DNA of 64,000 nucleotides, taken from positions 3,038,001 to 3,102,000 of the forward strand of contig NZ_LT670849.1 in NCBI RefSeq assembly GCF_900142985.1, read 5' to 3'. Of the stretch, positions 8,350 through 56,092 are shown one piece after another. Made by a program: the position numbers and the translations under genes. The stretch comes from Bradyrhizobium erythrophlei. Its GTDB lineage: Bacteria > Pseudomonadota > Alphaproteobacteria > Rhizobiales > Xanthobacteraceae. The notes beneath the pieces are model-generated. The model searched no databases. It had not been told where the DNA came from and saw nothing but the letters and a program-made list of their open reading frames with translations. Numbering within the stretch: the first letter of the stretch is position 1; each line of letters starts with the position of its first letter.

Positions 8350-8436
8350 CGTCATTGCGAGCGTAAGCGAAGCAATCCAGTCCTTGCCGTAGAAACGATT
8401 CTGGATTGCTTCGTCGCTTTGCTCCTCGCAATGACG
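8350..8436. repeat. Long REP-like dispersed palindrome
   Basis: 87-bp imperfect palindrome that begins CGTCATTGCGAGCG and AGCGAAGCAATCCAG and ends CTGGATTGCTTCGTCGC and CTCCTCGCAATGACG. It lies 2 bp after the LysR stop and before the 3' end of the convergent dehydrogenase gene. I recognise it as a widespread extragenic palindrome of Bradyrhizobium and Rhodopseudomonas genomes. It may also act as a bidirectional terminator here. Confidence 0.85.
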
Positions 8437-10423: not shown

Positions 10424-10915
10424 TCAGCGCTTCTTGCGCAGGCGGACGACCATGTCGATCCGCGCGATCTCGTAGCCCTCGGGCACCTCGGGCATTTTCT
10501 GCAGCACCAGATGCGGGTCCTCGATATCGACCAGCTCGTGGTTGTTCTCGAGATAGAAATGATGGTGCGCCGACACGTTGGTATCGAAATAGGTCTTGGT
10601 GCCGTCGACGCTGACCTGGCGCAGCAGGCCCGCGTCGGTCAATTGATTGAGAGTGTTGTAGACGGTGGCCAGCGACACCGGGACTTTGGCCAGCGTCGCC
10701 TCTTCGTAGAGCATTTCAGCGGTGAGGTGCCGCGCGCCCTTGCCGAACAGGAGCCAACCCAACGCCATGCGCTGGCGGGTCGGCCGCAGGCCGGCCGCTT
10801 GCAGCATTTCGTTGACGTCGTGCCATGGGCAGCCGGTCAAAGCTGGTTCACGGCCGGTCACGCCAGGCTCGGAACCCACTATTTCGTCGTTCAAAGCAGC
10901 ACCGTTGTCGCTCAT
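10424..10915 (-). CDS. irr: Irr, heme-responsive Fur-family iron regulator
   Basis: Global regulator of iron and heme metabolism in alphaproteobacteria; under iron sufficiency it is degraded through interaction with heme at ferrochelatase. From the ATG at 10915 it is 163 aa and places Cys29 in the heme regulatory motif GCPWHDV, the size and position known for Bradyrhizobium Irr, so this start is preferred over an upstream TTG at 10939. The second heme site, a run of three His (SAHHHFYLENNHE), is present. The DNA-binding domain includes LRPTRQRMALGWLLF. Adjacent to fabA in divergent orientation, as in other rhizobia. Confidence 0.97.
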   Translation of the reverse strand: MSDNGAALNDEIVGSEPGVTGREPALTGCPWHDVNEMLQAAGLRPTRQRMALGWLLFGKGARHLTAEMLYEEATLAKVPVSLATVYNTLNQLTDAGLLRQVSVDGTKTYFDTNVSAHHHFYLENNHELVDIEDPHLVLQKMPEVPEGYEIARIDMVVRLRKKR

Positions 10916-10944
10916 TTCCACGTCAGACTCTGCAAACAACCTCG

Positions 10945-10961: not shown

Positions 10962-11059
10962 AGGGAGGATCGGCATTAGATGCAAGTTTTTCGCAACTAG
11001 AACGCCCCCAAAGCATGAAGAGTTAAGCCTGCGGCGGGCAGGAAGCGGCTAATTGCCCG

Positions 11060-11134
11060 CTAGTGTCCCGATTCCGAAGTTCGTATGATCTTGCGGACCC
11101 ACGTTTACGAACTTCGGAATCGAAAGGACACTAG
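11060..11134. repeat. CTAG-bounded palindromic element A1
   Basis: 75 bp. The ends CTAGTGTCC and GGACACTAG are perfect complements, and the inner arms (17 bp, starting CGATTCCGAAG) are also perfect complements around a 20-nt loop. The two stem blocks are separated on the right side only by an unpaired AAA. Exactly 13 nt (CCAAGTTATTAAT) separate it from A2, which has the same architecture in inverted orientation. Confidence 0.9.
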
Positions 11135-11147
11135 CCAAGTTATTAAT

Positions 11148-11228
11148 CTAGTGTGGCTTTTTGGTTCAGAAGTCCGCATGGAGAACGCGCGGCAATGGTG
11201 ATGCGAACTTCTGAACCCGCCACACCGG
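11148..11228. repeat. CTAG-bounded palindromic element A2
   Basis: 81 bp, starting CTAGTGTGGC. The stem blocks GTGTGGC with GCCACAC and GGTTCAGAAGT with ACTTCTGAACC are separated on the left by unpaired TTTT(T), mirroring A1. The terminal CTAG on the right has decayed to CCGG. Arm and loop sequences differ from A1, so the conserved property is the architecture. Confidence 0.85.
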
Positions 11229-11427: not shown

Positions 11428-11958
11428 ATGCTGGATCGGCGCAGCGGTTATGAATATGAGGATCTGCTGGCATGTGCCCGCGGTGAGCTGTTTGGTCCCG
11501 GCAATGCCCAGTTGCCGCTGCCGCCGATGCTGATGTTCGACCGCATCACCGACATCAGCGAGACCGGCGGGGAATTCGGCAAGGGACTGATCCGCGCCGA
11601 GCTCGACGTCAAATCCGACCTCTGGTTTTTCGGCTGCCATTTCAAGAATGATCCGGTCATGCCGGGCTGCCTTGGCTTGGATGCGATGTGGCAGATGGTT
11701 GGCTTCTACCTCGGCTGGGTCGGCGGCGAGGGCCGCGGCCGAGCGCTGGGTCTTGGCGAACTGAAGCTGGCTGGCCAGGTGCTGCCGAATGTCCGGAAGG
11801 TTGTGTACAATATCGACATCAAGCGCGTGATGCGGATGAAGCTCTGGCTTGGCATTGCGGACGGCTGGCTTTCCATGGATGACGAGATTATCTATCGCGC
11901 CAAGGACCTGAAGGTCGGCCTGTTCAAGCAGGACGCCGCATTGCAGCAGACGGTGTGA
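11428..11958 (+). CDS. fabA: FabA, 3-hydroxydecanoyl-ACP dehydratase/isomerase
   Basis: 176-aa bifunctional dehydratase and trans-2/cis-3-decenoyl-ACP isomerase of anaerobic unsaturated fatty acid synthesis. The hot-dog active site is visible: catalytic His in [14 protein letters not shown] and Asp in [18 protein letters not shown] and the [17 protein letters not shown] segment are typical. First gene of fabA-fabB-fabV, with 80 bp to fabB. Being next to irr may reflect shared iron- or stress-linked history, but no shared promoter is visible because they are divergent and more than 500 bp apart. Confidence 0.98.
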
Positions 11959-23423: not shown

Positions 23424-23512
23424 TCATGCCCGCGCCTGTCGCGGGCATCCACGTCTTTCCTGCTGCTGAATTCTTTAAGACGTGGATGCCCGGCATAAAG
23501 CCGGGCATGACG
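23424..23512. repeat. Dispersed palindromic repeat, second copy of the 10309-10394 family
   Basis: 89-bp element in the infB-rbfA gap. TCATGCCCGCG, CGCGGGCATCCACGTC, then ACGTGGATGCCCGG and CCGGGCATGACG form nested stems. It shares the CATCCACG core and the GGCATGACG end with the copy near irr. Transcribed within the operon, it could be an RNA processing or pausing structure. Confidence 0.8.
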
Positions 23513-55212: not shown

Positions 55213-55288
55213 CTAGTGGTCCGATTCTAACATTTGCATCCCGGTCTGGCTGGCACTTTTGCAAATGTTAGAATCAAAGGACCTCTAG
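55213..55288. repeat. CTAG-bounded palindromic element B1
   Basis: 76 bp. CTAGTGGTCC with a complementary right end, and perfect inner arms GATTCTAACATTTGCA paired with TGCAAATGTTAGAATC. An unpaired AAA separates stem blocks on the right side only. Same orientation and architecture as A1 at 11060. Followed after exactly 13 nt (CAAATATAGGTTT) by B2. Confidence 0.9.
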
Positions 55289-55301
55289 CAAATATAGGTT
55301 T

Positions 55302-55379
55302 CTAGTGGAGTTTTGGATTTGACATTCGCATTACACATTCCGGGCGACAGGGTAGCGAATGTCAAATCCACTCCACTAG
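55302..55379. repeat. CTAG-bounded palindromic element B2
   Basis: 78 bp with perfect ends CTAGTGGAG and CTCCACTAG and perfect inner arms GGATTTGACATTCGC and GCGAATGTCAAATCC. On the left side TTTT and on the right side a single A interrupt the stem. Its right CTAG contains the stop codon of the methyltransferase gene that ends at 55376. Loop ATTCCGGGCGACAGGG is shared with the remnant at 61158-61214. Confidence 0.9.
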
Positions 55380-56092
55380 TACACGCCCGGCAGCAAACGG
55401 GCCGTCTTTGCCATGTAGTCTTCGTATTCCGGAAAACTTTGGAATAGCACCCGCTCCTCGTATTTCCTGCGCTGGAACTGGAATGCCCATGCGAGACACA
55501 GCAATAACAGCGCCCATACCGACAGGTGCTGTAGCGCAATTCCAGCGATCGCGACCATCTCGCCAAGATAAAGCGGATGGCGGACGAGCGCATACGGTCC
55601 CCTGGTGACGAGCCGCCGCGCTTCCGGCACAAGACTGATCGAGCGCCCGAGAACAAGCATCGCGTAAATCGCGAAAACCGTGCCGCCGGTAAGCAGGAGG
55701 AGCGAGACCAGGTAAAGCGCCGGCGAAAGCTCTTGCGGCGGCAACAGCAGGAAACCGAGACTCGAAAAGGTGCCGGCCATGGCGGCAAAGCGTGGATAAA
55801 TTCCCGGATTGCCCCGCTGCGGAACGTAACGCACGGCAAACATCACGATCAAAACCGCGAAGAAAACCAGCGTCATGATCTCCGAGACCGTGCGAAAAAC
55901 CAGAGAGGCCGGGAGCACGGACGGATCGGTCCGGACAAACAAGACAACAAGCGCCGCCCGCTGGGAAAGCGGTGGCAGCATCTGCGCCACGCTGAAGATA
56001 AACCAGGCGATGACAGGAGCCGCAGTGAGCAGGTCGTAGAGCTTGGTCCGCCGAAACGCTTCCAGACGCTCCATCACCGTAGCGCTTGCCAT
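55376..56092 (-). CDS. ICMT/PEMT-like membrane methyltransferase
   Basis: 238 aa with about five hydrophobic helices. The C-terminal signature RGPYALVRHPLYLGEMVAIA and EERVLFQSFPEYEDYM matches the isoprenylcysteine carboxyl methyltransferase/phospholipid methyltransferase family. Substrate may be a phospholipid or small lipid; rhizobial PmtA-type enzymes are soluble and different. The TAG stop lies within element B2 (see findings), so the natural C-terminus may have been trimmed there. Confidence 0.85.
   Translation of the reverse strand: MASATVMERLEAFRRTKLYDLLTAAPVIAWFIFSVAQMLPPLSQRAALVVLFVRTDPSVLPASLVFRTVSEIMTLVFFAVLIVMFAVRYVPQRGNPGIYPRFAAMAGTFSSLGFLLLPPQELSPALYLVSLLLLTGGTVFAIYAMLVLGRSISLVPEARRLVTRGPYALVRHPLYLGEMVAIAGIALQHLSVWALLLLCLAWAFQFQRRKYEERVLFQSFPEYEDYMAKTARLLPGVY

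Follow-up and report, generated by a model that had tools for sequence, protein, structure and literature searches.

Between the divergently oriented genes irr and fabA of Bradyrhizobium erythrophlei lie two CTAG-bounded palindromes that face each other across 13 nt. This raises the question of whether the pair is a copy of a mobile repeat and, if so, how such a repeat is built, how it moves and to which known class it is related. The window, that is, the whole stretch of 64,000 bp that was analyzed (bases 3038001–3102000 of the 7.5 Mb genome), was found to hold two elements of the same kind, designated A and B.

Organization of the Two Elements in the Window

Both elements showed the same layout: CTAG, hairpin, CTAG, 13 nt, CTAG, inverted hairpin, CTAG. 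Within a hairpin, an outer stem of 9–10 bp is combined with inner arms of 16–17 nt and a loop of 20–25 nt, and the arm that faces the spacer has a bulge of 3–5 nt of A or T. Element A (11060–11228) is located in the gap between irr (minus-strand ORF 10424–10939) and fabA (11428–11958), the gene names being those of the original prediction, and element B is located at 55213–55379. The following parts were identified:

11060..11134, plus strand: hairpin A1, outer stem CTAGTGTCC / GGACACTAG of 9 bp, AAA bulge on the 3′ side toward the spacer, perfect inner stem of 17 bp, loop of 20 nt
11135..11147, no strand: A spacer CCAAGTTATTAAT, 13 nt, AT-rich, between both inner CTAGs
11148..11228, minus strand: hairpin A2, inverted relative to A1, TTTTT bulge on the 5′ side toward the spacer, inner arms of 17 nt with one mismatch, loop of 21 nt; the right-hand terminal CTAG reads CCGG (11225–11228)
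55213..55288, plus strand: hairpin B1, arm GATTCTAACATTTGCA, AAA bulge toward the spacer, outer stem with one mismatch
55289..55301, no strand: B spacer CAAATATAGGTTT, 13 nt, the same spacer sequence recurring in the genome
55302..55379, minus strand: hairpin B2, arm TGGATTTGACATTCGC, TTT bulge toward the spacer
55376..55379, minus strand: terminal CTAG of B2, which includes the TAG stop of the minus-strand ORF 55376–56092 (238 aa)

These coordinates confirm the head-to-head pair described for A in the original prediction, and the second pair that it had placed near 55.3 kb was found to have the same layout and the same 13-nt spacing. It had also stated that the hairpins share architecture and not arm sequence; the shared architecture held, but the statement on the arms was too strong, A1 showing a 78% match over 77 nt to the reverse complement of A2. 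Folding of the DNA strands gave z = −8.18 for A and z = −12.38 for B, and none of 200 shuffles was as stable.

A block adjoining irr (GATGCAAGTTTTTCGCAACTAGAAC, window positions 10979–11003) was little changed in six other irr–fabA gaps from the same genus and is a possible regulator site. Element A starts 56 nt past this block, which is left intact.

Pairing, Spacing, and Orientation in the Genome

The genome scans covered 2.064 Mb of the 7.5 Mb, the window included. CTAG is rare in this sequence (1167 sites), and the distances from one CTAG to the next showed a peak at 13 nt (30 times), with 14 nt found 10 times, against a background of about 0.66 per distance; a second rise at 66–71 nt corresponds to the length of a hairpin. 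The spacing, on which the original prediction had staked its own refutation, is thus non-random. At each of the 30 CTAG-N13-CTAG sites, one side or both held a hairpin, and 58 of the 59 sides that were examined only because the opposite side qualified were hairpins as well. In the whole genome, CTAG-N13-CTAGTG gave 74 + 75 matches vs. 18 + 16 for the reversed pattern.

Hairpins with loops outside 17–32 nt were excluded, and 30 of 154 hairpins were dropped on failing the outer-stem test. A neighbor at most 40 nt away was found for 95 of 124 strict hairpins, and a recognizable adjoining partner was seen by eye for 24 of the remaining 29, so that the hairpins do not occur mostly as singletons. 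The other five were one nested hairpin, three shortened copies (2900674, 4288979, and 6360602) and one different palindrome (6229304). The bulges pointed inward in 47 of 48 hairpin neighbors less than 40 nt apart, as expected if the T-run sides face each other, and the single exception shares one CTAG back to back. A more permissive finder called 58 of 59 spacer-separated neighbors facing in this genome and 43 of 49 in another carrier genome, G043, the other six of the latter being non-facing by automatic call.

The unit is therefore a dyad of 160–170 bp (CTAG-hairpin-CTAG-13 nt-CTAG-hairpin-CTAG) that carries CTAG at both hairpin ends in most copies and in which the inner arms are 21 bp apart (4 + 13 + 4), about two helical turns. 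In other genomes, the gap was exactly 13 nt in 128 of 144 distinct gaps of 11–17 nt, counted after removal of duplicates and of one locus from the B. erythrophlei genome (149 of 169 before removal), and in 48 of 50 gaps in G043, though arms and spacers differ there. About 85 elements were present in the 2.064 Mb, which gives roughly 300 copies in the genome if the stretches read are typical. According to a crude ORF caller, which called 80% of the sequence coding, 80 of the 85 elements lie outside ORFs, and the gaps that hold them were 12 convergent, 44 tandem and 24 divergent (background 174, 578, and 249). Where the 3′ end of a gene called in this crude way faces an element, the stop codon lies inside the terminal CTAG in 19 of 68 cases, B among them.

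Insertion Sites and Evidence for Movement

At locus L310, a dyad with arms a-b was found exactly at the inner CTAG of a dyad with arms i-j, with CTAG on both sides, whereas intact i-j copies in the B. erythrophlei genome have a single CTAG or CCAG where L310 has two CTAGs. Two more nested dyads were seen by eye, c-d within a-b (genome position 1069810 onward) and g-h within f-e. Only one clean empty site was obtained: the filled locus L134 reads CAGCCG-CTAG-element-CTAG-CGCGAC and the corresponding empty locus L301 from Afipia reads CAGCCA-CCAG-CACAAC. The nesting at L310 and this empty site show insertion of the dyad at CTAG-like sites together with duplication of the site, and a target-site duplication as in MITEs is thereby present, in these few cases. 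A less clean comparison at L240, only one of five in its set, suggests a CGAG target. In a second set of ten comparisons, three represented the same locus twice, three were L310, one was L134/L301 and three were without a clear target. Dyads abutted via one shared CTAG 17 times, some of these loci overlapping. The nested insertions, the clean empty site and the occurrence in many genera (see below) support the proposal of a mobile REP- or MITE-like repeat family.

In the irr–fabA gap, none of 29 other loci of the same genus gave a hit to the element (E 1e-5), and the gap in these loci measured 293–346 nt (12 gaps measured) vs. 488 nt with it. No CTAG was seen by eye at the insertion point in the relatives compared, at most CCGG.

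Two further observations concern insertion sites. In one intergenic gap, two relatives carry different dyads at nearly the same position (1161689–1161858 in the B. erythrophlei genome and L322:4894–5062), as if this gap had been hit twice independently. At L195 (genome G068), a short TACCC...GGGTA element sits at the inner CTAG between the hairpins with CTAG on both sides; it is perhaps a second, simpler CTAG-targeted MITE-like repeat.

Variation of the Arms

At least five paired arm types were distinguished by eye in the B. erythrophlei genome, and the same layout with other arms and spacers was found in G043, Sphingobium and Acidiphilium. An alignment of 60 hairpins, which had been picked by exact 12-base arms, showed two-sided changes in 24 of 26 pairs, and 97.2% of cells paired; 381 cells were changed on two sides vs. 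13 on one side, and the mean number of two-sided cells after shuffling was 113. This covariation bears out the structural constraint on the arms that the original prediction had suggested. Because of how these hairpins had been picked, the pairing test was repeated on 58 unselected partner hairpins, which gave 1457 Watson-Crick, 11 G-T, 10 A-C, and 10 other combinations. Without an excess of G-T over A-C, the constraint bears on the DNA itself or originates at that level, and it looks like one on DNA rather than RNA. The tetranucleotides at the hairpin ends can be mirrored too (GTAG...CTAC, CTGG...CCAG), which is not expected from direct duplication, so the terminal letters also follow the hairpin.

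Mirrored changes confined to single copies numbered 41 in 113 hairpins of the B. erythrophlei genome, besides 72 one-sided changes, where 0.15 would be expected if the two sides changed independently; however, 14 of the 41 are in three copies that may have been wrongly clustered, and others may be shared with copies beyond the 2.06 Mb read. In G043, six were found in 117 hairpins, besides 50 one-sided changes, with 0.07 expected. Clusters with fewer than six members were dropped from these counts (34 of 147 hairpins in the B. erythrophlei genome and 10 of 127 in G043). Co-evolution of the left and right arms was not supported, since permutations scored as high in 489 of 5000 cases for the B. 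erythrophlei genome and in 1654 of 5000 for G043, and an ungapped test showed no clear excess in the former and the reverse in the latter; pairs without an assignable left/right class (41 of 57 and 1 of 43, respectively) were left out.

Two copies in the B. erythrophlei genome (4288066 and 1144690) have perfect arms of 29–30 bp with the bulge letters in both arms, and a solo hairpin at L236:7778–7852 has no bulge. Such hairpins are possible footprints of template switching or of a deletion between arms.

Search for a Mobilizing Enzyme

A REP-associated transposase, as looked for in the original prediction, was not found: the B. erythrophlei genome gave no match to Y1_Tnp (PF01797). Within the family, 25 of the 87 genomes with hairpins gave a match, as did 10 of the 62 others (Fisher p = 0.08), so that 62 of the 87 carriers had none, including 22 of the 33 carriers with at least 31 scored hairpins. 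From this family search of the genome itself and 149 genomes, mobilization by a RAYT/Y1 enzyme was rejected for the B. erythrophlei genome.

Three IS481-family copies identical over 1035 bp (L216, L217, and L218, at 3719013, 5877660, and 6303025) each sit in a 6-bp NCTAGN duplication, and the third directly adjoins the remaining right half of a CTAG-dyad hairpin, of which no left half was seen. As the mobilizer, IS481 was rejected: the preference for CTAG is shared, but the ends of the copies in this genome differ in sequence and the duplication is 6 bp, not 4 bp. The best inverted ends at 29 further IS481 loci were unlike the arms (several of these candidates being chance), 14 carriers were without an IS481 match, and its presence was not correlated with hairpins (Fisher p = 0.21).

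Autonomous copies were sought as CTAG-bounded intervals of 0.4–4.5 kb with inverted ends in 3.53 Mb of partly overlapping sequence. Of the 88 intervals, 46 had both ends in ordinary hairpins, and the other 42 had IS481-type or other insertion sequence ends, spacer sequences or diverged arm sequences. No autonomous copy or mobilizer was found in the genome parts read, two of these 42 intervals having been opened. The intervals at L279 and L199 were rejected, being decayed dyads around ordinary-looking genes, and facing lone arms gave no better candidate. At L309:4021–5029, two CTAGs enclose about 1 kb of sequence whose 22-nt inverted ends match perfectly (GTGTTTAGTCCCAGCATGTGAT); this is probably an insertion sequence with a CTAG target.

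Distribution

Of 149 genomes from the family, 87 were matched by the hairpin model R1 (E 1e-4, with scoring limited to 31 hairpins per genome), and these represent 33 of the 47 genera sampled. In a class-wide sample of 190 genomes, the model matched 13, that of B. erythrophlei included (E 1e-8); the matches in genome G262 measure only 52–57 nt and could be of a different nature. With the exact spacer pattern alone, matches were obtained in only 11 of the 149 family genomes. In a public genome set, this pattern was found in at least 100 stretches, and the matches listed (80 of 100) include Bradyrhizobium, Afipia, Nitrobacter, Pseudolabrys, Rhizobium, Sphingobium, Sphingopyxis, Acidiphilium, and others. 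Eight plasmid records matched B, the five that were read having the same layout, and none matched A. Phage and viral collections gave no match to the exact spacer pattern or to B.

Relation to Known Repeats

The REPINs of Pseudomonas, as far as described in the accessible part of PMC3116915, resemble the CTAG dyad in that an inverted palindromic doublet is the moving unit, and in being extragenic, present in many copies, subject to compensatory changes and clustered by mutual insertion. Unlike REPINs, the dyad has a 13-nt spacer, a duplicated CTAG, stems of 25–26 bp that each form a separate hairpin and CTAG at all four hairpin ends, and no RAYT was found in the B. erythrophlei genome. The GTAG/CGTC REPs, including those of Bradyrhizobium, are likewise extragenic palindromes of related genera among which dimers occur, but they are units of 20–40 bp with a GTAG or CGTC tag at one end, so that stem length and tetranucleotide differ from the dyad, which has CTAG at both ends in most copies; the available text of PMC3733652 does not contain the word CTAG. 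As no Y1 transposase was found in this genome or in most carriers and the one-ended tag is lacking, the dyad was not assigned to REPINs, and it is best read as an element built like a REPIN that is not one. Br-REP1 and Br-REP2 of B. japonicum USDA 110 are also intergenic palindromes, found in Bradyrhizobium and Rhodopseudomonas; in contrast to the dyad, their consensus sequences as given in the part of PMC5082802 consulted (CCGGAATCTCGAGATTCCGG and CGAGATTCCGGGTTCGG...) have no CTAG ends and no such pairing, and by eye they did not agree with the hairpin alignment.

Bacterial MITEs, in the portions available of PMC10969869 and PMC5896051, are short and non-coding with inverted ends and a target duplication. 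The dyad agrees in being a non-coding element of 160–170 bp with terminal inverted repeats (A1 and A2 as compared above), but it has four mirrored arms where MITEs have two, and no parent element was found in the sequence scanned. The words CTAG, hairpin and Bradyrhizobium are absent from the text available of the MITE review PMC10969869, and QMITE2, compared with the dyad by description only, is stated in the accessible part of PMC5896051 to have relatives in Bradyrhizobium. Double-hairpin elements of fungal mitochondria, also compared by description only and from part of PMC10085805, resemble the dyad in that two hairpins form one putatively mobile, mostly intergenic unit, but are GC-rich, mitochondrial, and present in 1–14 copies.

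No description of the CTAG dyad was found among the open-licence papers listed. An earlier description may exist in older papers on the RIME elements of Rhizobium, of which RIME1 contains two large palindromes. The dyad can be said to work like a REPIN or a MITE and can be filed loosely with the small mobile palindromic repeats.

Nature of the Element

Each site is probably a copy of a non-autonomous, apparently mobile DNA element of about 160–170 bp in which the pair is the unit that moves and which is targeted to CTAG-like sequences. Insertion occurs at such a tetranucleotide (CTAG, CCAG, perhaps CGAG), which is then present on both sides, as a few cases show; because the terminal CTAG is restored on insertion, the target may keep a TAG stop. 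The outer arms would act as inexact terminal inverted repeats, beginning with 5′-TG and ending with CA-3′ in most subfamilies, and each is mirrored inside the element to form a hairpin whose inner arm is marked by a bulge of about 3 nt in nearly all copies. Since the inner arms are about two helical turns apart, both could be bound by a single protein assembly on the same face of the helix. We infer that an enzyme supplied in trans would recognize the folded or paired arms, that movement would need an intact hairpin, that helical phase may account for the 13 nt, and that mirrored mutations would arise in moving lineages.

That the dyads are REPINs, in which REP sequences form inverted doublets mobilized by a Y1 tyrosine transposase of the REP-associated type (RAYT), is very improbable: the logic of doublets, copy number and compensatory changes is alike (PMC3116915, as accessible) and Y1_Tnp was somewhat more frequent in carriers, but no match to the domain was found in this genome or in most carriers, and the hairpins end in CTAG on both sides with the tetranucleotide duplicated on insertion. 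A MITE of a DDE insertion sequence (IS481 or IS3-like) with TG...CA ends and a CTAG target, the inverted repeats of which were duplicated into hairpins, is a possible but doubtful source. Ends of the type TG...CA together with a 4-bp duplication fit integrase-type DDE elements, and in the dyad they would point to a mobilizer of this kind; the three IS481 copies in NCTAGN duplications, one of them adjoining a hairpin half, agree with this. Against it, the IS481 ends and the length of the duplication differ from those of the dyad, the best inverted ends at the further IS481 loci were not arm-like, and IS481 neither occurs in all carriers nor correlates with the hairpins. A mobile class outside REP/RAYT and the known IS-MITEs, with a recombinase that cuts CTAG and reads a pair of hairpins by fold and helical phase (the 13-nt spacer, with 21 bp between the inner arms) rather more than by their letters, is put forward only tentatively; if it exists, the arms would drift by mirrored changes while the geometry stays fixed across Alphaproteobacteria.

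It is highly unlikely that the hairpins act as RNA, as terminators, mRNA stabilizers or small RNAs selected site by site. The folds are very stable, although computed as DNA, and Br-REP1 of B. japonicum lies in transcribed 3′-UTRs according to the part of PMC5082802 available, but mispairs showed no preference for G-T over A-C (11 vs. 10), one-sided cells were few beside two-sided ones (in hairpins picked by exact arms), convergent gaps were not enriched, and no Rfam family matched at the gathering score, the weaker matches being microRNA families far below threshold. In-place template switching between the arms (quasipalindrome correction), instead of selection for movement, seems rather unlikely as the origin of the mirrored mutations, though the single-copy mirrored changes exceed expectation in both genomes and in two copies each arm contains the bulge letters. 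The bulge is kept in nearly all copies, and the orthologous copies L133/L298 and L226/L272, two of six comparison rows, together have a single one-sided change in their stems and none that is mirrored; the doubts about clustering and shared copies noted above also weaken the excess.

For the mobile dyad, a geometry that is kept while the letters change, without the G-T pairs that would be tolerated in RNA, offers a natural test of shape recognition in mobile DNA, and likewise of selection versus template switching as the process that preserves palindromes. The dyads place strong hairpins beside promoters, as at irr–fabA, and at stop codons. The repeat was found in 33 of the 47 genera sampled from a large bacterial family, with perhaps 300 copies in this genome.

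Other Palindromes in the Window

Palindromes of another kind, with arms CGAAGCAATCCAG and CGGGCATCCACGTCTT, were found at window positions 8368–8413 and 23442–23492 and recur elsewhere in the genome, where some of them adjoin CGTCATTGCGAG. These are probably REPs of the CGTC type.
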